From contig JANQJR010000063.1 of assembly GCA_028281525.1 (NCBI GenBank), positions 1 to 64,000 of the forward strand: a stretch of DNA of 64,000 nt. Reading direction: 5' to 3'. The notes under the pieces were generated by a model. That model did not search any database. It was not told where the DNA came from and saw only the letters and a program-made list of their open reading frames with translations. This DNA is from Magnetovibrio sp. (lineage in GTDB: Bacteria; Pseudomonadota; Alphaproteobacteria; Rhodospirillales; Magnetovibrionaceae). Each line of letters starts with the position of its first letter. Within the stretch, counting starts at the first letter, position 1. The translations under genes were made by a program, and so were the position numbers. Below are positions 4,689 to 31,906 of the stretch, piece by piece.

Positions 4689-6326
4689 TTACATATTCGG
4701 GTAATTGGGCCCGCCCGCGCCTTCCGGCGTGACCCAGACGATATTCTGGGTTGGGTCCTTGATGTCGCAAGTTTTGCAGTGCACGCAGTTCTGGGCATTG
4801 ATTTGCAGGCGCTTTTCGCCTTCCGGCCCGCCTTCCACATCGACGAATTCGTAGACCCCCGCCGGACAAAAACGCTGCTCCGGCCCATCATAGAGCACCA
4901 AGTTGGTGTTCACCGGCACGTCCGGGTCCTTGAGCGTCAGGTGGCACGGTTGGTCTTCTTCGTGGTTGGTGTTGGAAATGAAGACCGAACTCAACTTGTC
5001 GAAAGTGATCTCGCCGTCGGGCTTGGGATAGTCGATTTGCATCGGTTTTTGCGCCCGCTGGAGCTGATCGTGGTCGGAATGGTTCTGGAACGTCCACGGC
5101 GCGCGCCCACGGAATAAATAGGTGTCGAGGGCGGAGTACGCGATGCCCAGCCACAAGCCCTTGTGGAACGACGGGCGGATGTTGCGGGCTTTGTAGAGTT
5201 CCGACCACAGCCACGATTTTTTGAGGCTTTCGGGATAGGCGTTCAGTTCCGCGGGCGCATCCACGCCCCAGTTCTGGACGATGGCGTCGGCGCATTCGAT
5301 CGCCGATTTCATCGCGGTGTGCGAGCCCTTGATGCGCGGCACGTTCATGAACCCCGCCGATGCGCCGACCAGCGCGCCGCCCGGAAACACCAGTTTAGGA
5401 ATCGACTGGAAGCCGCCTTCGTTGAGCGCGCGCGCGCCATAGGCCACGCGCCGTCCACCCTCGAAAATGGGGCGAATCTTCGGGTGGGTCTTGAAGCGCT
5501 GCATTTCATCGAACGGCGAGAGATAAGGGTTGGTGTAATCGAGTCCTACGATGAAGCCCACCGCCACCAAATTCTCGCCCAGGTGATAGAGGAAGGAACC
5601 GCCATAGACGTCGGACGTCAGCGGCCAACCCACGGTGTGCACGACAGTGCCGGGTTTATGCTTATCGGGCTGGACTTCCCACAGTTCCTTGATGCCGATG
5701 CCGTACGTCTGCGGCTGCACGCCGTCGCGCAAGTTGAAGTGTTCCATCAACTGCTGGGACAGCGATCCCCGGCAACCTTCGGCGAAAACGGTGTAGGTGG
5801 CGTGCAACTCCACGCCGGGTTCGAAATTCGGCCCTTGCTCGCCGCCCGCCGTACGGCCCATGTCGCCGGTGGCGACGCCCTTCACCCTGCCGTCCTCGTG
5901 GAATAAGACCTCCGCCGCGGCGAAACCGGGAAAGACTTCGATCTCCAACGCCTCGGCCTGTTCACCCAGCCAGCGGGTCAGTTCGCCCAAGGAAATGACG
6001 TAGTTGCCCTCGTTGTGCATCTGCGGGGGTGTGGGCAGCTTGTAGGCGCCCTTTTCGGTCAGGAACACGAACTGGTCGTCGGTGACGGGCGTGTTCAAGG
6101 GCGCGCCCTTTTCCTGCCAGTCGGGGAACAATTCGTTCAGCGCGATGGGGTCGATCACCGCGCCGGATAGGATATGCGCGCCGATTTCGGAGCCCTTCTC
6201 CAACACGCACACGGAAATGTCCTTACCCGCCGCCTGGGCCTGCTGTTTGACGCGAATCGCCGCCGTCAGCCCCGCAGGGCCGCCGCCCACCACGACCACA
6301 TCGAATTCCATCGATTCCCGTTCCAT
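4689..6326 (-). CDS. Electron transfer flavoprotein-ubiquinone oxidoreductase
   Basis: Membrane-associated ETF-QO that takes electrons from reduced ETF (etfBA in this window) and passes them to ubiquinone. The N-terminus has the FAD-binding motif [14 protein letters not shown]. The C-terminal region carries the cysteines of the 4Fe-4S cluster (FCPAGVYEF, then [17 protein letters not shown]). The 545-residue length is normal, and the MERESMEFD start matches the family. The upstream divergent region carries inverted repeat A. It probably serves acyl-CoA dehydrogenases including the mcd product. Some annotations call this gene etfD or etfQO. Confidence 0.96.
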
Positions 6327-6424
6327 GCGCCTTATGCTCCTGCTGTCTTTATTTGTTCGGGGTATCGCGTTTTCGCGTGCGTCCCAGTTTGTTGTGTAGC
6401 CCGCAATTAAACCTCACTTGGAAA

Positions 6425-6464
6425 ATTGCTGCAACTGCGAAATATATTTTTGCATCGCAGCAAT
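6425..6464. promoter_or_regulatory. Inverted repeat A between ETF-QO and uracil-DNA glycosylase
   Basis: Perfect outer arms ATTGCTGC and GCAGCAAT enclose the inner near-palindrome TGCGAAA...TTTTGCA. It lies about 100 bases upstream of the ETF-QO start and 37 bases before the glycosylase start, so it could control either. Its TGCrAAA half-sites resemble repeats B and C near etfB and ccr/ecm. Confidence 0.5.
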
Positions 6465-17358: not shown

Positions 17359-17970
17359 GTGTTTCCTTCACATGGAAAACCACCGCCGTTATCGCCGGTG
17401 TTGTTGGCGGGGCTTGTTTCCAGACCGTTGCCGCCACGTTTGTTGCAGCCCGTGCTGGACGCCGTTTTCAAACGGGTGATGAGAAAGCACCCGGATTTGT
17501 TCGATCGCCTGTCGGGCTTGGGCAATCCGGTGTATTTGATCGATCCCACGGATTTGCCGTTTTCATTTTTGCTGAATGCCGACCCGGCCCGGCCCCGAAT
17601 GTTGGTCACAGTCGATGGCCGTGACGGGGTGGGGAACATGTGCGCTTCGGCCACCGTTCGCGGGCCTTTGCGGTCGTTGATCGATTTGCTGGAAGGCCGT
17701 ATGGATGGCGATGCGTTGTTTTTTTCACGGTCTTTGAACATCGAAGGCGATACCGAGGCCGTGGTCGCGTTGCGCAACGCCGTCGACGACGCCAATGTGC
17801 AATTGACGGATGATGTTCTGGCCTCTTTGGGCCCGTTTTCCGGCCCGGCGCGCCGAGCTCTCAAATTGGGTGAGCAGCTTTATCACCGCCTCGATCAGGA
17901 CTTGGAAATCGTACGGGCGTCCGTTCACGCCCATCCTGGGGGGCAAGCGGTTAAAGGTCCAAAAGTATGA
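17359..17970 (+). CDS. ubiT: Ubiquinone accessory factor UbiT (SCP2 domain)
   Basis: SCP2-domain lipid carrier that supports oxygen-independent ubiquinone synthesis. The start is GTG at 17359 with AGGGA about nine bases upstream. The N-terminus PLPPRLLQPVLDAVFKRVM is amphipathic, followed by the SCP2 core (VYLIDPTDLPFSFLLN, then ALFFSRSLNIEGDTEAVVALRNAVD). The last bases overlap ubiU (ATGA). The gene order ubiT-ubiU-ubiV supports the call. SCP2 proteins alone are weakly specific. Confidence 0.9.
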   Translation: MFPSHGKPPPLSPVLLAGLVSRPLPPRLLQPVLDAVFKRVMRKHPDLFDRLSGLGNPVYLIDPTDLPFSFLLNADPARPRMLVTVDGRDGVGNMCASATVRGPLRSLIDLLEGRMDGDALFFSRSLNIEGDTEAVVALRNAVDDANVQLTDDVLASLGPFSGPARRALKLGEQLYHRLDQDLEIVRASVHAHPGGQAVKGPKV

Positions 17971-18953
17971 GCACGCTTGAACTGGTTTGTCCTGCCGGAA
18001 CGCCGGCGGCATTGAAGGCCGCTGTCGCCAGCGGTGCGGACGCCGTATATCTGGGCTTTCGGGACGCGACCAACGCACGCAATTTTCCCGGGCTCAATTT
18101 TTCACGCGCCGAATTGGAACAAGGCATATTTCATGCCCATGCCCAGGGCTGCAAAATCTTTCTCGCCATAAACACGTTTCCCACCGCGGGCGATCCTGAA
18201 CCCTGGCACAAAGCCGTAGATGACGGCGCCGCGTTGGGGGTGGATGCGGTGATCCTTGCGGACATTGGCTTGCTTGATTACGCCGCCAGGAATCATCCAG
18301 ATCTCCGCCGCCATTTGTCGGTACAGGCCTCGGCCTCCAATCCGGAATCGATCCGCTTTTACCAGGAAGCCTTCGACGTGAAGCGGGTGGTGTTGCCACG
18401 TGTTCTCAGCGTCGCTGAAATCGCTGCGTTGAACGATGAAATCAATGTGGAAACCGAGGTTTTCGTGTTTGGCGGTCTGTGCGTCATGGCGGAAGGGCGG
18501 TGTGCGTTGTCTTCGTATGTCACGGGGGAATCGCCCAACACCAACGGGGTGTGTTCGCCTGCCTGTGCGGTCCGCTATGAGGAAGACGATGGTGGCACCA
18601 TGGCGTCCAAACTGGGCGATTTTACCATCAACGCCTTTGCGCCGGGCGAGGCGGCGGGGTACCCGACACTGTGCAAAGGCCGTTTCGTCGCCAAAGGCGA
18701 GGCATCGTACCTGTTCGAAGATCCGGTCAGTCTCAACGCCGCATCGATTTTGCCGGAACTTGCCGCGGCAGGCGTGACGGGGTTGAAGATTGAAGGCCGT
18801 CAACGCGGCAAGGCGTATATCGCCGAAGTCGTGTCGTCGTTTCGCCAGGCGGTGGATTCCATGGACGATGGTGGTGCGATCAAAGCCGATTTAATCAACG
18901 TGACCGAGGGTCAGCGCAAGACCGCCGGCGCTTATCAAAAGACATGGCGTTGA
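17967..18953 (+). CDS. ubiU: Anaerobic ubiquinone biosynthesis protein UbiU (U32 family)
   Basis: Peptidase U32-family iron-sulfur protein. With UbiV it carries out oxygen-independent ring hydroxylation in ubiquinone synthesis, using prephenate as the oxygen source in E. coli. The start LELVCPAGTPAALKAAVASGADAVYLGF is the typical UbiU N-terminus. Four cysteines fit the 4Fe-4S site: GLCVMAEGRC (two candidates), GVCSPAC, and CKGRF. Length of 328 is normal. Central gene of the operon, with an ATGA overlap to ubiT. Confidence 0.95.
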   Translation: MSTLELVCPAGTPAALKAAVASGADAVYLGFRDATNARNFPGLNFSRAELEQGIFHAHAQGCKIFLAINTFPTAGDPEPWHKAVDDGAALGVDAVILADIGLLDYAARNHPDLRRHLSVQASASNPESIRFYQEAFDVKRVVLPRVLSVAEIAALNDEINVETEVFVFGGLCVMAEGRCALSSYVTGESPNTNGVCSPACAVRYEEDDGGTMASKLGDFTINAFAPGEAAGYPTLCKGRFVAKGEASYLFEDPVSLNAASILPELAAAGVTGLKIEGRQRGKAYIAEVVSSFRQAVDSMDDGGAIKADLINVTEGQRKTAGAYQKTWR

Positions 18954-18990
18954 AGACTGGACGCTGATCATGACAGAACAAGAGAATGCA

Positions 18991-19887
18991 ATGAACGCAA
19001 CACTGGTGATGGGACCGGTTCTGTTCAACTGGAAGCCTGAAACGTGGCGGGATTATTATTTTCGCATTGCCGACGAAGCGGACGTGGATGAGGTCTGTGT
19101 TGGTGAGGTGGTGTGCTCCAAACGCGCACCGTTTTTCGAGCCTTACCTGCCCGAAGTCATAGAACGCCTTCAGGCCGCAAACAAAAAAGTGATTCTTTCC
19201 ACCCTGGCGCTGATTATGAATAAGCGAGAAATGAACGGTGTGCGCGACGTGGCGGAAATTATCGATGACGGCATACAGGTTGAGGCCAATGATGTTTCCG
19301 CCACGGCGCTTTTGCGCGGAAAACCCCATACGGTTGGCCCTTTCGTCAACGTCTACAACGAAGGGACATTGTCTTATCTGGTTGAAAACGGTGCCCAATC
19401 CGTCTGCTTACCGGTCGAATTGGGGCTGGATGCTTTAACCGCTCTCGCCAAGGAAAGTTCTGCACAGCTTGAGATCCTGGTTTTCGGGCGTTTGCCGCTG
19501 GCGATTTCAGCGCGCTGTTATCATGCCCGCGCCCACGGCTTGCACAAAGACAGCTGCAAGTACGTCTGTGAACAGGACCCGGATGGCATGGACGTCGAAA
19601 CGCTCGATGGCGAAGCTTTTCTGGCTGTAAATGGCGTACAGACTTTGTCCCATGCTTATGGCGAGTTGAGTGTGTCAATTCAGGATTTGCTGAAGATCGG
19701 CATTCGCCGTTTGCGTCTGTCACCCCATGCTCGCGTCGATATGGTTGCGGTGGCGGATGCCTATCGTGCGGTGGCGAACGGCACGATGGATGGAGAACAG
19801 GCGCATGCCCATCTCGCCGGGATGCTCAAGGGCGCGGACATGTGTAATGGTTATATCCGCGGGCGGAACGGCCATATCTACAGCTAG
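18991..19887 (+). CDS. ubiV: Anaerobic ubiquinone biosynthesis protein UbiV (U32 family)
   Basis: Partner of UbiU in oxygen-independent ubiquinone hydroxylation. The start MNATLVMGPVLFNWKPETWRDYY aligns in layout with known UbiV starts, and an AAGAG lies seven bases upstream; the ATG at 18970 is a possible alternative. The iron-sulfur cysteines are GEVVCSKR near the N-terminus and CYHARAHGLHKDSCKYVC. The gene ends at a strong bidirectional terminator. With a cell carrying ubiTUV, ubiquinone can be made without oxygen. Confidence 0.94.
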   Translation: MNATLVMGPVLFNWKPETWRDYYFRIADEADVDEVCVGEVVCSKRAPFFEPYLPEVIERLQAANKKVILSTLALIMNKREMNGVRDVAEIIDDGIQVEANDVSATALLRGKPHTVGPFVNVYNEGTLSYLVENGAQSVCLPVELGLDALTALAKESSAQLEILVFGRLPLAISARCYHARAHGLHKDSCKYVCEQDPDGMDVETLDGEAFLAVNGVQTLSHAYGELSVSIQDLLKIGIRRLRLSPHARVDMVAVADAYRAVANGTMDGEQAHAHLAGMLKGADMCNGYIRGRNGHIYS

Positions 19888-20151: not shown

Positions 20152-21036
20152 TTAGCGCGTCGGCACCGGCTCCTCGCCGGAATAGTCGTAGAACCCCTTG
20201 CCGGTCTTCTTGCCGAGCCATCCGGCCTCGACGTACTTCACCAGCAGCGGGCAGGGGCGGTACTTGGAATCCGCCAAGCCTTCGTGCAGCACGTTCATCA
20301 CCGCGAGGCACGTATCCAGGCCGATGAAGTCGGCCAGTTGCAGCGGGCCCATGGGGTGGTTCGCGCCGAGCCGCATGGCGTTGTCGATGGCGGCCACGGT
20401 GCCAACCCCTTCATACAGGGTGTAGACCGCTTCGTTGATCATCGGCATCAGCATGCGGTTTACAATGAAGGCCGGGAAGTCTTCCGCCGGAACCGGGGTC
20501 TTATCCATGCGTTCGGCGAGCGCCGAGACGGTCTTGAAGGTCTTTTCCTCGGTGGCGATGCCACGGATCATTTCCACCAGTTCCATGGCCGGTACCGGGT
20601 TCATGAAGTGCATGCCGACGAACTGGCCCGGTCGGTCGGTCTGTGCCGCCAAACGGGTGATGGAGATGGACGACGTGTTGGTGGCGATGATGGCCTCAGG
20701 CTTCAAGACGGGACAAAGATCCTTCAAGATTGCCTTTTTGACGTCTTCGTTTTCGGTGGCGGCTTCGATCACCAAATCACAGTCGGAAAAGGTCGCCGTG
20801 TCGGTGCCGGTTTGAATGCGCGGCAGCGCCCCGTCCATATCGGCCTGGGCGATTTTTTCCTTTTTCACCTGGCGGGCCATGTAAGCCTTGATGTTTTCCA
20901 TCGCCGCGTCCAAGGCATCGGCGTTGGTGTCCATCAACTGCACGTTATACCCAGCCAACGCGGAGACGTGGGCGATGCCGCGCCCCATTTGCCCCGCACC
21001 GATCACCCCGATCATTTTGATATCGTCCACAGACAT
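20152..21036 (-). CDS. 3-hydroxybutyryl-CoA dehydrogenase
   Basis: NAD(P)-dependent short-chain 3-hydroxyacyl-CoA dehydrogenase interconverting acetoacetyl-CoA and 3-hydroxybutyryl-CoA. The Rossmann motif [15 protein letters not shown] is at residue ~9, NTSSISIT follows, then the catalytic-His segment [15 protein letters not shown] and the C-terminal [18 protein letters not shown] dimer helix. Length of 294 matches. Third gene of the run etfB-etfA-hbd on the minus strand; the 42-base gap to etfA suggests one transcript. Such an enzyme feeds the ethylmalonyl-CoA pathway or PHB metabolism. Commonly named hbd or paaH. Confidence 0.93.
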
Positions 21037-21078: not shown

Positions 21079-22005
21079 TTAGAGAGAGTCGGCCAATTCA
21101 GGCAACACATCGAACAGATCAGCGACCAACCCGTAATCGGCAACCTGGAAGATGGGAGCCTCTTCATCCTTGTTGATGGCGACGATGACCTTGCTGTCCT
21201 TCATTCCCGCCAAGTGCTGAATCGCGCCGGAAATGCCGACCGCAATGTATAGCTCGGGCGCCACGACCTTGCCGGTTTGGCCAACTTGGTAGTCGTTGGG
21301 GACAAAGCCAGCGTCCACCGCCGCGCGCGATGCGCCGACCGCTGCACCCAGTTTGTCCGCCACGGTTTCCAAAAGATGGAAGTTCTCGCCCGACGCCATG
21401 CCGCGTCCACCCGAAATGATCACGGAGGCCGCCGTCAATTCGGGGCGTTCCGATTGGGTCAGCTCCGCACCGACGAAGGTGGAGATACCGGGGTCTTGCG
21501 CCGCGTCAATGGATTCCACAGTAGCCGATCCGCCTTCCGCCGCCGCCGCTTCAAACGCAGTGGTGCGCACGGTGATCACCTTGGTGGCGTCCGTGCTTTT
21601 GACCGTGGCGATGGCGTTGCCCGCATAGATGGGCCGTTTGAAGGTGTCTGCGTTCACCACGGCGGTGATGTCGGAAATTTGCTGTACGTCCAACAGCGCG
21701 CTCGCGCGCGGCAAGATGTTCTTACCAGTGGTGGTCGCGGCAGCCATCAACACGTCGTAATCGCCAGCCAGGCGGACGAGCAGAGGTGCGATGGTTTCAG
21801 CCAGTGCATGTTCGTAAAGCGGCGCGTCGGCCACCAGGACCTTCGTCACGCCATCGATTTTGGCGGCGGCATCGGCCACGGACTGACAGCCCGCGCCCGC
21901 GACCAGGATTGTGACATCACCAAGCGCTTTACCCGCCGTCACGGCGTTCAGGGTTTGCGCTTTGAGTTCCGAATTGTCGTGTTCGGCAAGGATCAGGACG
22001 CTCAT
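21079..22005 (-). CDS. etfA: Electron transfer flavoprotein subunit alpha
   Basis: FAD-carrying large subunit of soluble ETF, which accepts electrons from acyl-CoA dehydrogenases and passes them to ETF-QO. The FAD-binding C-terminal domain has GAAVGASRAAVDAGFVPNDYQVGQTGKVVAPELYIA and GISGAIQHLAGM. The start codon shares a base with the etfB stop (TGATG). At 308 residues it is normal for the electron-transfer (group I) type, not the bifurcating type. Confidence 0.97.
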   Translation of the reverse strand: MSVLILAEHDNSELKAQTLNAVTAGKALGDVTILVAGAGCQSVADAAAKIDGVTKVLVADAPLYEHALAETIAPLLVRLAGDYDVLMAAATTTGKNILPRASALLDVQQISDITAVVNADTFKRPIYAGNAIATVKSTDATKVITVRTTAFEAAAAEGGSATVESIDAAQDPGISTFVGAELTQSERPELTAASVIISGGRGMASGENFHLLETVADKLGAAVGASRAAVDAGFVPNDYQVGQTGKVVAPELYIAVGISGAIQHLAGMKDSKVIVAINKDEEAPIFQVADYGLVADLFDVLPELADSL

Positions 22006-22754
22006 CAGATCACCTTTGCCTCGTTCTTGAGTTTGTTCACCAGCTCCGCCACGTCAGCGACGATCACGCCGGCTTCGCGGCCTGCGGGTTCTTCCACGCC
22101 GAGCACTTCCAGGCGCGGCGCCACGTCGACACCCAGCTCATCCGTGGTGAGCTTGTCGATGGGTTTCTTCTTCGCCTTCATGATATTGGGCAGCGAAGCA
22201 TAACGCGGCTCGTTCAGGCGCAAGTCGGTGCTCACCACGCAGGGCACGTTGAGACCCACGGTTTCCAAGCCGCCGTCGATTTCGCGCGTCACGTTGGCCT
22301 TGCCGTCCACAAGCTCCAGCTTGGAGGCGAAAGTGCCCTGGGGCCAGCCCAGAAGAGCGGCGAGCATCTGGCCGGTCTGGTTGCTGTCATCGTCGATGGC
22401 CTGTTTGCCCATCACCACCAGATCAGGATTTTCCTTTTCGACCAGCGCCTTGAGCAGTTTGGCGACGGCCAGCGGTTCCAGCACTGCGTCGGTTTCCACA
22501 TGGATGCCCCGATCCGCGCCCATGGCAAGGGCGGTGCGGATGGTTTCCTGGGCTTGGCTCACGCCCAGCGAAACGGCGACGATTTCTTCTGCCGCGCCTG
22601 ATTCTTTCAAGCGTACGGCTTCTTCGACGGCGATTTCGTCGAAGGGATTCATGGACATTTTAACGCCTGTGGTCTCGACGTCCGTCCCATCCGTTTTGAC
22701 ACGGATTTTGACGTTGTAGTCGACCACCCGTTTGACGGCGACCAAAACTTTCAT
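22005..22754 (-). CDS. etfB: Electron transfer flavoprotein subunit beta
   Basis: AMP-binding small subunit of ETF. The protein begins [20 protein letters not shown], has [12 protein letters not shown] and [25 protein letters not shown], and ends with the [10 protein letters not shown] recognition-loop region and RE-rich tail. The 249-residue length matches. The upstream gap to the adenosyltransferase gene carries inverted repeat B. Electrons delivered here would come from enzymes such as the methylsuccinyl-CoA dehydrogenase encoded 4 kb away. Confidence 0.97.
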
Positions 22755-22861
22755 ATGCGTATTTCCGGCTTTCGTTTGTTGTGTTTCCGGTTCCCTGTCG
22801 GCTGGGTCCGCCTTTCATGGGCGGGTGCGCAGCCGGACGAAGAGCTTAGGCAAGTTTCGCC

Positions 22862-22888
22862 GCACCTGCAAACTCTTTTCGCAGGTGC
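22862..22888. promoter_or_regulatory. Inverted repeat B upstream of etfB
   Basis: Perfect arms GCACCTGC and GCAGGTGC flank AAACTCTTTTC, giving TGCAAA...TTTTCGCA. It lies 108 bases before the etfB start. The downstream side has no T-run, so it does not look like a terminator for the preceding gene. Confidence 0.5.
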
Positions 22889-22931
22889 ACAATAAGAAAT
22901 TTATCCAATGATAGTTTATCACCATTAAAAA

Positions 22932-23492
22932 TCACGCGTTGCCACCCGGTTTCCATAGGATGTCGTTTTCGCCTAAGTTGTTCTCGGCCCGAGCGAGCTG
23001 GAACAAAAGGTCGGATAGGCGGTTCAAATACTTAAGAATTTCTGGGTTCAGCGGGCTTTGGGCGTGGAGCGCCACCACGGTGCGTTCCGAACGGCGTACA
23101 AGGGTGCGGGCCAAATGCAGCCGCGCCGCCGTTTCTGTGCCGCCAGGCAGCACGAAGCTTGTAAGCGGGCCCAGTTTGTCGCTCAAGGCATCGATTTCGG
23201 CCTCCAACGCCGCCGCACGGCCTTCGGCGAGTCTGAGTGCGCCTTCCACTTCACCGGGAGTCGCCAGGTCCGCGCCCAGGTCAAACAGGTCATTTTGCAC
23301 GCGAGCCAGGAACTGATCGGCGGCGGACCCATTTTCGAGCGCGACGCGCGCGAAACCGATTGCGGCGTTGGCTTCGTCCACGTCGCCGATGGCGGAAAAG
23401 CGGACATGATCCTTGGCGAGCCGCGAGCCGTCCACCAAGCCGCTTTCGCCGCCGTCGCCGCTGCGGGTGTAGATTTTGTTGAGTTTGACCAT
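22932..23492 (-). CDS. Cob(I)alamin adenosyltransferase, PduO type
   Basis: Transfers the adenosyl group of ATP to cob(I)alamin to make adenosylcobalamin. The ATP-binding N-terminus KIYTRSGDGGESGLVDGSR and the helical-bundle motifs IGDVDEANAAIGFAR, RLHLARTLVRRSERTVVAL and LKYLNRLSDLLFQLARAEN are all present in 186 residues. Adenosylcobalamin is the cofactor of the ethylmalonyl-CoA mutase (ecm) and the ribonucleotide reductase (nrdJ) in this window. It precedes etfB on the same strand with 177 bases between. Confidence 0.93.
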   Translation of the reverse strand: MVKLNKIYTRSGDGGESGLVDGSRLAKDHVRFSAIGDVDEANAAIGFARVALENGSAADQFLARVQNDLFDLGADLATPGEVEGALRLAEGRAAALEAEIDALSDKLGPLTSFVLPGGTETAARLHLARTLVRRSERTVVALHAQSPLNPEILKYLNRLSDLLFQLARAENNLGENDILWKPGGNA

Positions 23493-26657: not shown

Positions 26658-28313
26658 CTACGGCTTCAGCAACCCGCGCGCGATCACGTGGGCCTGAATT
26701 TCCGCGGCGCCTTCGAAAATGTTGAGGATGCGCGCATCCACCAGAACGCGGGAAATCGGATATTCTAGCGCGTAACCGTTGCCGCCGTGAACCTGCAGCG
26801 CATTGTCGGCGTTGGACCACGCCACCCGTGCAGCCAGCAGCTTGGCCATGCCCGCTTCGATATCGGTGCGGTGTTCCAAATCCTTTTCACGTGCGGCGAA
26901 GAAGGAGATTTGGCGTGCGATCTGCGTTTCCACGGCCATCCAGCCCAGTTTCGCCGCGACACGTGGGAACTTGATGATGGTATGGCCGAATTGGATGCGT
27001 TCGTGCGCGTAGCGCAGACCCAGTTCCAAGGCGTTGGCGGCGACGCCGACGGCGCGGGCCGCCGTTTGGATGCGTGCAGCTTCGAAGGTTGACATCAACT
27101 GTTTGAAGCCCTGGCCTTCTTGGCCGCCCAGCAGCGCGGAGGCGGGGACTTCCAGGTTGTCGAAGGCCAACTCGTATTCCTTCATGCCGCGATAGCCCAG
27201 CACTTCGATTTCCGTGCCGGTCATACCGGGCAGCGGGAACGGATCGTCTTGTGTGCCGCGCGGCTTTTCGATCAGAAACATGGACAGGCCCTTGTAGCCC
27301 GGCTCGTCCGGATCGGTGCGCGCCAGCAGCGTCATCATGTCGGAACGCGCCGCATGGGTGATCCAGGTCTTGTTGCCGGTGATGCGGTAGACATCGCCGT
27401 CCCGGACTGCGCGGGTCTTGAGCGACGCCAGATCGGAGCCGGTGTTGGGCTCGGTGAACACCGCGGTGGGCAGAAGTTCACCGGACGCAAGCAGCGGCAG
27501 GTACTTTTCCTTCTGCTCCGGTGTGCCGCCGATGTTGATCAATTCGCCCGCGATTTCGGAACGCGTGCCGAGCGAGCCTACGCCGATATAGCCGCGCGAC
27601 AGCTCCTCGGTGACCACGCACATGGCGGTCTTGCCCATGTCCAAACCGCCAAACTCTTCGGGAATGGTCAGGCCGAACACGCCCAATTCCGCCATCTGGG
27701 TGATGATTTCGTCCGGGATCAGGACGTCGTTGTCATGCCAAGCCGGTGCGTTGGGGGCGACCTCCTCGGCGGCGAAACGGCGGAACTGTTCTTGGATCAT
27801 GTCCAGCGTTTCGTCGCCTAAGGCGTCGTTGCCGAACATTTGGGTGTTGACGTCCAGCAGTTCCGCGATGCGCACGCGGGCGTGCGCGGAATTGCCCTCC
27901 TGGATCAGCTTGGTCACGGCGTCGGTGTGGAAATCGCGCGCCTTGACGTGCCCGACACCCAAATCGCGCGGACGCACCACCTCCACCTGGCTCATGGGGA
28001 TGCCGCCGGCCATCTGGCTTAAGTATTCGGCGCAGCCCACCTGCAGGGTCAGTTGCTCCAGTTCGCCGAATTGGCTTTCAGCCTCCAGGCGCTCGGCCCA
28101 GTGCACCAACTGTTCGATGGCCCGCGCGTAGGTTTGCAGCCATGCAAAGCCGTGGGCGGCGAACTGTTCCCGGTCCAAGGCCGCGCTGTCGATTTTGCCA
28201 TCCTTGACGATCTTCGCCTGCACGCCTTCACGCGCGGCGTCGACGAGAATGGCGGTGTCCTTCGCAGCCTGCTGGCAGAGCGCCAGCAGGCCATCGAGTT
28301 TGTAATCACTCAT
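26658..28313 (-). CDS. mcd: (2S)-methylsuccinyl-CoA dehydrogenase
   Basis: Acyl-CoA dehydrogenase family flavoprotein of the ethylmalonyl-CoA pathway, oxidising methylsuccinyl-CoA to mesaconyl-CoA and passing electrons to ETF. The acyl-CoA dehydrogenase core is clear (FGLTIPEEFGGLDMG, TEPNTGSDLASLKTRA, ITGNKTWITHAARSDMMTLLARTD, QVHGGNGYALEYPISRVLVDARILNIFEG). An N-terminal extension of about 150 residues precedes it, a feature of Mcd that separates it from ordinary acyl-CoA dehydrogenases (~380-390 residues). I use ATG 28313 (MSDYKLDG). It follows ccr by 26 bases on the same strand, which strongly supports the assignment. Confidence 0.9.
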   Translation of the reverse strand: MSDYKLDGLLALCQQAAKDTAILVDAAREGVQAKIVKDGKIDSAALDREQFAAHGFAWLQTYARAIEQLVHWAERLEAESQFGELEQLTLQVGCAEYLSQMAGGIPMSQVEVVRPRDLGVGHVKARDFHTDAVTKLIQEGNSAHARVRIAELLDVNTQMFGNDALGDETLDMIQEQFRRFAAEEVAPNAPAWHDNDVLIPDEIITQMAELGVFGLTIPEEFGGLDMGKTAMCVVTEELSRGYIGVGSLGTRSEIAGELINIGGTPEQKEKYLPLLASGELLPTAVFTEPNTGSDLASLKTRAVRDGDVYRITGNKTWITHAARSDMMTLLARTDPDEPGYKGLSMFLIEKPRGTQDDPFPLPGMTGTEIEVLGYRGMKEYELAFDNLEVPASALLGGQEGQGFKQLMSTFEAARIQTAARAVGVAANALELGLRYAHERIQFGHTIIKFPRVAAKLGWMAVETQIARQISFFAAREKDLEHRTDIEAGMAKLLAARVAWSNADNALQVHGGNGYALEYPISRVLVDARILNIFEGAAEIQAHVIARGLLKP

Positions 28314-28339
28314 GGCTCCGTTCCTCAGTCTTGGAGGCC

Positions 28340-29641
28340 TCAGTCTTCGAGGCAATCTTCGACGGTGCGCCGTCCCGGCTGCATCGCCTGGACCAGAACC
28401 GCCATGTTGCCGGGCTTGTGTTCGTTGCGGCGCATTTTCATGTGCGCTTCGGGAATTTCAGCCCATGGGAACACTTCGCTCATGCACGGATCGATGCGCC
28501 GCTCGATGACCAGTTTGTTGGCCTGGGCGGCTTGCTTCAAGTGGGCGAAGTGGCTGCCCTGGATGCGCTTTTGGCGCATCCACACGAAGCGCGCGTCAAA
28601 CGTGATGTTGAAACCCGTGGTGCCCGCGCAAAACACCACCATGCCGCCGCGTTTGACCACGAAGCAGGACACCGGGAAAGTCGATTCGCCCGGGTGTTCG
28701 AAGACCATGCCGACGTCGTTGCCCTTGCCGGTGATGGCCCAGATGGCTTTGCCGAATTCACGCGAGCGCTTCATGTAGTCTTTGTAGTTTTCCTGGTCGT
28801 CGACGTCGGGCAATTGACCCCAGCAGTCGAAATTCTTGCGGTTGATGACGCCCTTGGCGCCCATGCTCATGACGAAATCTTTCTTGTCGTCTTCGGAAAT
28901 GATGCCGATGGCGTTGGCGCCGGCGGTGGCGATCAACTGGATGGCCATGGAGCCCAGGCCGCCCGAAGCACCCCAAACCAAAACGTTGTGGCCCGGGCGC
29001 AGGATGTGCGGACGGTGGCCAAACAGCATGCGGTAAGCGGTCGCCAGCGTCAGGGTGTAGCACGCGCTTTCTTCCCAGGTGAGGTGCCTGGGTCGTTCCA
29101 GGAGCTGTTGCGCCTGCACGCGGGTGAACTGCGCGAAGGAACCGTCCGGCGTTTCATAGCCCCAGATGCGCTGGGTCGGCGAGAACATCGGATCGCCGCC
29201 GTTGCACTCTTCATCGTCGCCGTCGTCCTGATTGCAGTGAATCACGACTTCGTCGCCGACTTTCCAGCGGGTGACCTTGGAGCCCACTTTCCAGATGATG
29301 CCGGATGCGTCCGAGCCGGCTACGTGGAAGTCGGCCTTGTGGGAATCGAAGGGTGAAATCGGCAGGCCCAAAGAAGCCCAGATGCCGTTGTAATTGACGC
29401 CCGCGGCCATCACCAGGACCAGAACTTCGTGGCTGTCGATGTCCGGGGTGTCGACCACTTCGACCTGCATGGCCTCTGTGGGTTCGCCATGGCGTTCGCG
29501 GCGGATCGCCCAGGCGTACATCTGCTTGGGCACGTGACCCAACGGCGGGAATTCGCCCATTTCGTACAAATCTTTTTTGGGCTGGTTCGCCAGCACGTCT
29601 GCCATACCGCCCGTGGTTTCGTCTACGTTGGCCTGAGCCAT
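28340..29641 (-). CDS. ccr: Crotonyl-CoA carboxylase/reductase
   Basis: NADPH-dependent reductive carboxylase that converts crotonyl-CoA and CO2 to (2S)-ethylmalonyl-CoA, the defining enzyme of the ethylmalonyl-CoA pathway. It is an MDR-fold protein with the Ccr-specific stretches YAWAIRRERHGEPTEAMQVEVVD, NYNGIWASLGLPISPFDSHK, and the NADPH-binding WGASGGLGSMAIQLIATAGAN. The length of 433 is normal. First gene of a ccr-mcd operon, divergent from ecm across a 255-base region that carries inverted repeat C. Confidence 0.96.
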   Translation of the reverse strand: MAQANVDETTGGMADVLANQPKKDLYEMGEFPPLGHVPKQMYAWAIRRERHGEPTEAMQVEVVDTPDIDSHEVLVLVMAAGVNYNGIWASLGLPISPFDSHKADFHVAGSDASGIIWKVGSKVTRWKVGDEVVIHCNQDDGDDEECNGGDPMFSPTQRIWGYETPDGSFAQFTRVQAQQLLERPRHLTWEESACYTLTLATAYRMLFGHRPHILRPGHNVLVWGASGGLGSMAIQLIATAGANAIGIISEDDKKDFVMSMGAKGVINRKNFDCWGQLPDVDDQENYKDYMKRSREFGKAIWAITGKGNDVGMVFEHPGESTFPVSCFVVKRGGMVVFCAGTTGFNITFDARFVWMRQKRIQGSHFAHLKQAAQANKLVIERRIDPCMSEVFPWAEIPEAHMKMRRNEHKPGNMAVLVQAMQPGRRTVEDCLED

Positions 29642-29775
29642 GATGAGCCTCCATTCGTTCGTCCAGGCCCGCCCCGGTTATTGCGTTCCCTGTGTGCGGT
29701 TTTTGCGTCCAAACGGACGCGATTGGGGAGGACCGCTTTTGTTGGACCGATAGTCTAGGCTCAAGTTGAAAAATA

Positions 29776-29806
29776 TTGCAATGCACAAAATTTTCCGCAC
29801 TTGCGA
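29776..29806. promoter_or_regulatory. Inverted repeat C between ccr and ecm
   Basis: Half-sites GCAATGCACAAAA and TTTTCCGCACTTGC meet back to back; reverse-complemented, the second is GCAAGTGCGGAAAA, a close match to the first. It lies about 135 bases from the ccr start and 91 bases from the ecm start, the expected place for a shared operator. Confidence 0.5.
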
Positions 29807-29896
29807 AAAAATGCTTGTTGAGGGACAATTGCTCCGCAAAACCGTCCAGAAGCGCAAAGCGTCCATAAGGCGGTCCCAGGACACAGGGAGAGCAAA

Positions 29897-31906
29897 ATGA
29901 CCCGCGATACCGCAGATGCGAAAAGTGCAGCCGTGCCTAAGGACGCCCCGAAAAAGGATCGTCCGTGGCTGTTTCGCACCTATTCCGGCCACTCTTCGGC
30001 CAAGGCTTCGAACGAATTGTACCGCACGAATCTCGGCCGCGGCCAAAGCGGCCTGTCGGTTGCGTTCGATTTGCCGACGCAGACCGCGCTCGATTCCGAC
30101 GATATCCTGGCGCGCGGCGAAGTGGGCAAGGTGGGCGTGCCGATTTCGCATCTGGGCGATATGCAAACTTTGTTCGACGGCATTCCGCTGGAGCAGATGA
30201 ACACCTCGATGACCATCAATGCCGCCGCCCCATGGCTGCTGTCGTTGTTGATCGCGACCGCCGAATCCCAGGGCGCGGACCGCTCTCAGCTGGCCGGAAC
30301 CACCCAAAACGACATCATCAAGGAGTATTTGTCGCGCGGCACCTACATTTTCCCGCCCGCGCCGTCCATGCGTTTGGAAACGGATGTGATCGCATTCACG
30401 ACCCGGGAAATGCCCAAGTGGAATCCCATGAACGTATGCTCGTACCACCTTCAAGAAGCGGGCGCGGAGCCGGCGGAGGAACTGGCCTTTGCCATGGCCA
30501 ACGCCATCACCGTATTGGACATGGTCAAAGACCGCGGCGGCGTCGCGGATGAGGACTTCGCAGCCGTGGTGGGGCGCATCAGCTTTTTCCTGAATGCCGG
30601 CATTCGCTTTGTGACGGAGCTGTGCAAGGCCCGCGCGTTCGCGGAGCTGTGGGACGAAATCACGTTGCAGCGCTACGGCGTCGAAGACCCGAAGCTGCGC
30701 CGTTTCCGCTATGGGGTGCAGGTGAACTCGCTGGGTCTCACCGAAGCGCAGCCGGAAAACAACGTTTACCGCATCATGATCGAAATGCTCTCCGTGGTGC
30801 TGTCGAAAAACGCCCGCGCCCGCGCCGTGCAGTTGCCCGCGTGGAACGAAGCCTTGGGCTTGCCGCGCCCATGGGATCAGCAGTGGTCCTTGCGTTTGCA
30901 GCAGATTATGGCGTTCGAAACGGATCTTTTGGAATACGGCGACATTTTCGACGGCTCGGCAGAAATCACCGCCAAGGTCGAAGCGCTCAAAGCCCAGGCG
31001 CGCGAAGAGCTCACGCGCCTGGATGAAATGGGCGGCGTGATCAAGGCGGTGGAACAGGGATACATGAAGCAGCGTCTGGTGGAATCCAACGCCAAGCGCC
31101 TGGCCGCCATCCAGGCGGGCGAATCGACCGTGGTCGGCGTCAACAAGTTCGCCGAAGGCGAACCGTCGCCATTGGTGTCCGGCGCGGAAACGTTCCTGAC
31201 CCCGGATGCGGAGGCGGAAAACAACCAAATCGAAAACTTGAAGGCTTGGCGCGCTCGCCGCGACAACGCGGTGGTCGAAGTGGCCTTAGCCCAATTGGAA
31301 GCTGCGGCCAAGAGCGGCGAAAACATCATGGAAAGCTCCATCGCTTGTGCCAAAGCGGGCGTCACCACCGGTGAGTGGGGCGGCAAACTGCGCGAAGTAT
31401 TCGGCGAATACCGCGCACCCACCGGCATCGCCGGGGCGGCGCGTGCGCCGGTGGTCGATGCCGACGATGTACGCACTCAAATCAACAAGCTCAGTGACAC
31501 TATGGGCACGCGCCCGCGCTTGTTGGTTGCCAAACCCGGCCTGGATGGGCACTCCAACGGGGCGGAGCAGGTGGCCTTGGCCGCACGCGATGCGGGCTTT
31601 GAAGTGATCTACGAAGGCATCCGCCAGACGCCCGCCGAAATCGTCTCCGCCGCATTGCAGGAAGGTGTGCACGCCGTGGGGCTGTCGGTGCTGTCCGGTT
31701 CGCACCTGACCTTGGTCGAGGACGTGATTTCGGGTCTCAAAGAAAAAGGCGCACAAGATATTCCTGTGATTGTCGGCGGCATCATCCCGGAGCGTGATAT
31801 GGAGGCTCTCAGGGGACTGGGCGTGGCGCGCGTGTTCACGCCTAAGGATTTCGAAATGAGCGCAATGCTGGCGGAAATCGCCGGTGTGGTGGAAACGCGG
31901 ATTTAA
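29897..31906 (+). CDS. ecm: Ethylmalonyl-CoA mutase
   Basis: Adenosylcobalamin-dependent mutase that rearranges (2R)-ethylmalonyl-CoA to methylsuccinyl-CoA. The substrate-binding barrel is recognisable (LFRTYSGHSSAKASNELYRTNLGRGQSGLSVAFDLPTQTALDSD) and the C-terminal B12 domain has KPGLDGHSNGAEQVALAARDAGFEV, with the DGHxxG histidine ligand, and SVLSGSHL. At 669 residues it is a single-chain mutase. It differs from methylmalonyl-CoA mutase in the N-terminal sequence, and the divergent ccr-mcd pair makes the ethylmalonyl role near certain. Also known as meaA. Confidence 0.95.
   Translation: MTRDTADAKSAAVPKDAPKKDRPWLFRTYSGHSSAKASNELYRTNLGRGQSGLSVAFDLPTQTALDSDDILARGEVGKVGVPISHLGDMQTLFDGIPLEQMNTSMTINAAAPWLLSLLIATAESQGADRSQLAGTTQNDIIKEYLSRGTYIFPPAPSMRLETDVIAFTTREMPKWNPMNVCSYHLQEAGAEPAEELAFAMANAITVLDMVKDRGGVADEDFAAVVGRISFFLNAGIRFVTELCKARAFAELWDEITLQRYGVEDPKLRRFRYGVQVNSLGLTEAQPENNVYRIMIEMLSVVLSKNARARAVQLPAWNEALGLPRPWDQQWSLRLQQIMAFETDLLEYGDIFDGSAEITAKVEALKAQAREELTRLDEMGGVIKAVEQGYMKQRLVESNAKRLAAIQAGESTVVGVNKFAEGEPSPLVSGAETFLTPDAEAENNQIENLKAWRARRDNAVVEVALAQLEAAAKSGENIMESSIACAKAGVTTGEWGGKLREVFGEYRAPTGIAGAARAPVVDADDVRTQINKLSDTMGTRPRLLVAKPGLDGHSNGAEQVALAARDAGFEVIYEGIRQTPAEIVSAALQEGVHAVGLSVLSGSHLTLVEDVISGLKEKGAQDIPVIVGGIIPERDMEALRGLGVARVFTPKDFEMSAMLAEIAGVVETRI

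Follow-up and report, generated by a model that had tools for sequence, protein, structure and literature searches.

Three promoter regions of an acyl-CoA and electron-transfer route in a marine Magnetovibrio-like bacterium carry paired palindromic boxes of two classes, GC-N3-GC and GC-N4-GC (TTYGCA-NN-TGCRAA), hereafter N3 and N4. N4 boxes occur in all three sites, and the composition is N4+N4 at etfB, N3+N4 at ETF-QO and N4+N3 at ccr. From comparison of the sequences we consider it probable (about 0.6) that these are paired operators of ETF-QO, etfBA-hbd and ccr, in which the N3 boxes are sites of PhaR and the N4 boxes belong to a regulon with a second factor. Throughout, the window is the whole stretch of DNA that was analysed, 64 kb in length.

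The gene names given for the three loci in the preliminary description (ETF, ETF-QO, hbd, ccr-mcd and ecm) were borne out by family searches. The genes are as follows.

4689-6326, minus strand: ETF-quinone oxidoreductase-like FAD oxidoreductase (ETF-QO), matching FixC-type families below the curated cut-off
22005-22754, minus strand: etfB (ETF beta), followed by etfA (21079-22005) and hbd (20152-21036)
26658-28355, minus strand: acyl-CoA dehydrogenase, taken as mcd from the family search
28340-29641, minus strand: ccr, crotonyl-CoA carboxylase/reductase (TIGR01751, 607.5 bits; cut-off 378.6)
29897-31906, plus strand: acyl-CoA mutase of the ethylmalonyl-CoA mutase type, taken as ecm from the family search and divergent from ccr

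Of 60 genomes of the order, 56 have an orthologue of the ETF-QO-like gene. The ecm product shares 38% identity with the genome's separate methylmalonyl-CoA mutase (mcm). Judged by ccr, Magnetovibrio blakemorei and a Magnetovibrio MAG are the closest named genomes. A gene for a cobalamin adenosyltransferase of the PduO type (window 22932-23492, minus strand) has its end 178 bp ahead of etfB, which is on the same strand; the enzyme would serve the pathway's B12-dependent mutases. A few hundred bases separate ubiU and ubiV, genes for oxygen-independent ubiquinone synthesis (window 17967-19887), from the etf operon at its hbd end.

The three inverted repeats described earlier upstream of these genes were all found in place: site B at 22862-22869/22881-22888, site A at 6425-6464 and site C at 29776-29808. 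Site B, CGCACCTGCAAACTCTTTTCGCAGGTGCA (22861-22889), is 107 bp from the etfB start and site A, ATTGCTGCAACTGCGAAATATATTTTTGCATCGCAGCAAT (6425-6464), 99 bp from the ETF-QO start, both on the upstream side; site C, TTGCAATGCACAAAATTTTCCGCACTTGCGAAA (29776-29808), lies in the region that separates ccr from the acyl-CoA mutase gene divergent from it. The half-site that had been proposed for them, YGCANNTGCRAAA, was enriched both in the window, with four matches against 0.49 expected (0 of 100 shuffles reached four), and in the whole genome, where 42 strand-matches compare with 11 for the reversed pattern used as control. Three of the four window matches are sites A, B and C, one each. The fourth, CGCAGATGCGAAA (29911-29923), falls within the first codons of ecm; M. 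blakemorei has a related sequence, TGCAGATGCGAA. The motif YGCANNTGCRAAA is itself palindromic (YGCA-NN-TGCR) and not half of one palindrome; each site accordingly consists of two palindromic boxes, and it is this pairing that makes the sites resemble single inverted repeats. The TGCAAA...TTTTCGCA core on which attention had been placed is not the signal, as TGCRAA-N3..8-TTYGCA gave 16 strand-matches genome-wide against 14 in the control; the signal is the YGCANNTGCR box. The idea of a single motif is likewise not supported as it was put: sites A and C hold in addition the differently spaced N3 box. The boxes and the promoters predicted beside them are listed below.

6406-6434, minus strand: predicted ETF-QO promoter, -35 TTGCAG (6429-6434), 17 bp spacer, -10 TTTAAT (6406-6411)
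6430-6442, plus strand: site A proximal N4 box, TGCAACTGCGAAA, overlapping the predicted ETF-QO -35; ATTTCGCAGTTGCAGCA is invariant in the genus
6448-6464, minus strand: site A distal box, PhaR-type GC-N3-GC, ATTGCTGCGATGCAAAA on the minus strand, with TGCATCGCAGCA at 6451-6462 on the plus strand; conserved in the genus
22843-22871, minus strand: predicted etfB promoter, -35 TTGCAG (22866-22871), 17 bp spacer, -10 TAAGCT (22843-22848)
22861-22872, minus strand: site B proximal N4 box, CGCACCTGCAAA on the plus strand, overlapping the predicted etfB -35; centres of the two site B boxes 19 bp apart
22878-22889, minus strand: site B distal N4 box, TGCACCTGCGAA on the minus strand, the first of two upstream of etfB; conserved in congeners
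29752-29781, minus strand: predicted ccr promoter, -35 TTGCAA (29776-29781), 18 bp spacer, -10 TAGACT (29752-29757)
29776-29788, plus strand: site C ccr-proximal PhaR-type GC-N3-GC box, TTGCAATGCACAA, an exact match to the PhaR consensus TGCRNYGCASMA, overlapping the predicted ccr -35
29796-29808, plus strand: site C distal N4 box, CGCACTTGCGAAA; its centre is 19.5 bp from that of the PhaR-type box

The gene-proximal box of each pair overlaps the predicted -35 (TTGCAG or TTGCAA), and the predicted -10 (TAAGCT, TTTAAT or TAGACT) follows after a spacer of 17-18 bp. In the genus, the centres of the paired boxes lie 19-20.5 bp apart at all three promoters, or roughly two turns of the helix. The mcm promoter on contig C56 likewise carries an N4+N3 pair, at 19.5 bp.

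The sites are conserved in orthologous promoters. Alignment of three congener genomes gave near-identical islands, namely TGCGAAAAGAGTTTGCAGG at etfB, ATTTCGCAGTTGCAGCA at ETF-QO and TTTCGCAAGTGCG...ATTGTGCATTGCAATAT at ccr; the etfB promoter CTTGCCTAAGCTC is invariant across three congeners but for one base, and the ETF-QO promoter GGTTTAATT is invariant in the genus. In the ETF-QO upstream regions compared outside the genus, neither the site A pair nor its PhaR-type box was kept; the proximal N4 box is kept in part in another genus of the family (L192). Conservation of the site C distal N4 box is limited to Magnetovibrio (L109, L110), and N4 boxes at etfB are also present in other families of the order. 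We regard it as very improbable that the sites are chance inverted repeats or transcription terminators. Site B does lie 43-71 bp past the adenosyltransferase stop and an 8-bp stem is possible there, but no T-run follows the stem, the half-site enrichment and the conservation footprints are strong, and the boxes stand at fixed promoter positions with the downstream genes forming one pathway. Enrichment and conservation thus uphold the original view of related sites in promoter regions that would form a common regulon of the acyl-CoA/ETF route.

One box of site A and one of site C fit a published consensus. The PhaR consensus of Bradyrhizobium diazoefficiens, established by footprints and gel shifts, is TGCRNYGCASMA (PMC6201568), and the core of Sinorhizobium meliloti PhaR is YGCRNYGCR (PMC12542648). 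Both are matched by TGCATCGCAGCA (6451-6462, site A) and TGCAATGCACAA (29777-29788, site C), while both boxes of site B, and the remaining box of A and of C, fail to match TGCRNYGCASMA. These exact matches left the suggestion of a single RamB/ScfR-type regulator unsupported. Genome-wide, TGCRNYGCASMA gave 100 strand-matches against 38 for the control. Its count in the window, three against 1.27 expected, is not significant, and the argument therefore rests on box position and conservation.

The genome has one phaR gene (PF07879, E 1.1e-29; C23:66680-66862), located on the contig that holds the window, 2.7 kb after the window ends, next to genes for a thiolase and a short-chain reductase that were taken as phaA and phaB. 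A PhaR box, TTGCACTGCACAA, lies upstream of phaR (L041:2532), and the phasin promoter has two (L048:1166 and 1196) around a TTGACC -35, an arrangement also described for phaP1 and phaP2 of S. meliloti (PMC12542648). Across the order, the phaR promoters carry an N3 box in 20 of 21 cases (2.2 expected) and an N4 box in 4 of 21 (1.9 expected). Further PhaR-type boxes of the genome (L247, L248, L261 and L243) precede an ADP-forming acyl-CoA synthetase-like gene that is accompanied by an AcuC-type deacetylase, two AMP-forming acyl-CoA synthetase genes and a malate/lactate dehydrogenase gene.

In 80 ccr loci drawn from Rhodospirillales, Rhodobacterales and other Alphaproteobacteria, a PhaR-type box was present upstream of ccr in 73, where dinucleotide shuffles predict 2.5 and the coding control has 13 of 80. 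Almost all of these boxes have the same orientation. The commonest best -10 positions are 30-31 bp from the box start, which places the box over the ccr -35. The phaR gene was present in 21 of 21 ccr-bearing genomes tested. Seven ccr loci have no PhaR box; loss of phaR was rejected as the cause, as the genomes checked among them do have the gene.

From the sequence and position of the N3 boxes, one in A and one in C, we infer that they are bound by PhaR, a regulator that also binds polyhydroxybutyrate (PHB) granules. Repression of phasin genes by PhaR lasts until the granules titrate it (PMC12542648). By analogy, PhaR at ccr would hold the pathway back until crotonyl-CoA and PHB precursors are in excess. 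Covering the ccr -35, it would most likely act as a repressor; with acetyl-CoA abundant and PHB accumulating, it would be titrated onto the granules, and the ethylmalonyl-CoA pathway and the electron carriers would be released. Activation at ccr is also conceivable, because PhaR activates some targets, pckA and pdhA, in related bacteria (PMC6201568). A PhaR box in about nine tenths of the sampled alphaproteobacterial ccr loci would tie PHB storage directly to ccr, the branch point at which crotonyl-CoA leaves the PHB cycle.

The arrangement is similar to the PhaR/AniA regulon of B. diazoefficiens and S. meliloti in the sequence of the A and C boxes, in the boxes of the phaR and phasin promoters, in having two boxes per promoter and in its central-carbon targets (PMC6201568, PMC12542648). 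It differs in that ccr, ecm, etf and ETF-QO are absent from the targets reported, and N4 boxes are undescribed, in the available parts of those accounts. Searches of open full texts gave no report of PhaR acting at ccr or etf, and an earlier prediction of this regulon may stand in subscription papers or in RegPrecise; the main text of the M. extorquens phaR transcriptome paper discusses acetyl-CoA partitioning and not ccr (PMC6520949).

Strict N4 palindromes, TTYGCANNTGCRAA, were located among the loci extracted upstream of pccB (a carboxyl transferase gene, followed by a biotin carboxylase gene), a CoA-lyase/mesaconyl-CoA hydratase operon, mcm, pckA (GTP-type PEP carboxykinase) and coaX; one more strict match falls inside an ORF. 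The lyase was called malyl-CoA lyase (mcl) by a reading of its sequence and its position beside the mesaconyl-CoA hydratase gene. The N4-linked genes are those of the ethylmalonyl-CoA and methylmalonyl-CoA route plus electron carriers and exit, and the N4 boxes most likely mark a corresponding regulon of etf, ETF-QO, ccr, pccB, mcl-mch, mcm, pckA and coaX. The box of coaX (type III pantothenate kinase) lies about 55 bp upstream of the gene (L044:2674, C46), which suggests that CoA supply may be coupled to the same regulon.

The N4 class extends beyond the genus at some of these genes. An N4 box was present in 12 of 30 mcm promoters (0.9 expected), and the pckA boxes were not kept beyond the genus. 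At etfB, a box of either class was found in 37 of 50 upstream regions of the order (3.9 expected). The etfB promoter of most families reads TTGACA-N17-TATTGT and is directly followed by GC-N3-GC (13 genomes) or GC-N4-GC (10 genomes, with further N4 examples one base away). The N4 boxes of mcm and pckA stand upstream of -35 elements that are poor or normal, a position that would suit an activator, whereas the etfB boxes of other families, just after the -10, would suit a repressor. Control through N4 could accordingly be of either sign.

PhaR alone might read every box, tolerating 3 or 4 bp, and A, B and C would then be tandem PhaR operators two turns apart. N3 and N4 swap at the identical etfB promoter position across families, as a one-base indel would have it, which does suggest one regulator tolerating both spacings; N3 is paired with N4 at about 20 bp in site A, site C and mcm, and alternative PhaR sites with other gap lengths have been suggested (PMC10888616). 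The etfB promoter box is also absent in four phaR-less genomes, with one stray match at -236 in G008, but this is weak evidence, since the phaR-bearing relative G053 has no etfB box either. Other observations separate the classes. An N4 box at mcm is seen where etfB has N4 and not where it has N3 (10 of 14 genomes against 0 of 6; Fisher ~0.005, kinship between genomes ignored), and at etfB all N4 boxes keep a GCGAA flank on the right that the N3 boxes do not. Because published PhaR boxes are GC-N3-GC, phaR promoters carry N3 and not N4, and N4 boxes keep this TGCGAA flank, we think it rather unlikely that PhaR reads every box. The N4 boxes are probably read by a second regulator distinct from PhaR, and for those in A, B and C a second transcription factor is the most likely reader.

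The RamB/ScfR family named in the preliminary description was considered both for all boxes and for N4 only. The genome has a single ScfR gene, on a contig other than that of the window (C43:35035; L001 ORF 1423-3054, minus strand). Its product is RamB-like, at 390 bits against a cut-off of 700, and contains an insert between the HTH and the C-terminal domain that is weakly similar to histidine-kinase dimerisation segments. ScfR sites have the form TTTGC(A/G)AA, which the TGCRAA/TTYGCA half-sites resemble (PMC6765138), and in G058 the sequence TTTGCGAA-GCCC-TTCGCAA stands beside a PccR-like ScfR gene and pccB. Nevertheless, the N3 boxes at A and C are of the PhaR type, and the one at C is kept far beyond the genus. 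The ScfR gene of the genome is unlinked to the targets, and its own promoter carries no such box. The N4 palindrome TTYGCA-NN-TGCRAA is arranged differently from the tandem TTTGCAAA-N4-TTTGCAAA, which none of the sites shows, the inner TGCRAA-N5-TTYGCA of site B being one base longer. We therefore hold it improbable that one RamB/ScfR-type regulator reads all three sites. An ScfR-type protein as the reader of N4 boxes is possible, because their TGCGAA half-site equals the TGCGAA/TTCGCA in G058.

PccR (R. sphaeroides), RamB (P. denitrificans) and PrpR (M. tuberculosis) control propionyl-CoA/acetyl-CoA assimilation, PrpR and PccR have TGCRAA half-sites, and boxes are paired as here; the half-site arrangement is different, no ScfR gene adjoins the regulon, and RamB of P. 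denitrificans activates the glyoxylate cycle (PMC10370305, PMC6765138, PMC12632250). The switch-on of the ethylmalonyl-CoA pathway in bacteria without the glyoxylate cycle is poorly understood, and the open papers covered by the search show no regulator for the pathway as a whole. In Methylobacterium extorquens, CcrR is a TetR-type activator of ccr, likewise a regulator of the entry enzyme. Our tentative view, held with a little less than even confidence, is that the TTYGCANNTGCRAA box marks a dedicated, undescribed Rhodospirillales regulon for the whole ethylmalonyl-CoA pathway with its own regulator, possibly the RamB-like ScfR with the kinase-like insert. This regulon would be layered with PhaR control of ccr, a storage-polymer sensor gating the entry step across Alphaproteobacteria. 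The N4 box offers a handle for finding the pathway-wide regulator, and both boxes bear on the engineering of PHB and dicarboxylic acid production.

The mcm neighbourhoods of 20 genomes of the order contained no regulon-linked regulator, and an ScfR gene stood beside mcm/pccBA only in G058. A GcrA-family gene, the only common regulator neighbour, was near mcm in 16 of the 20 (L343-L361). This cell-cycle regulator was rejected as the linked N4 regulator, as it neighbours mcm in genomes with and without N4 boxes. An intergenic palindromic cluster in the genome, GATGCAAACTGCAAACGCATCTTTGCATTTTGCAGTGC (L043:2289-2306; C13:14288), has no gene assigned to it and belongs to neither box class.
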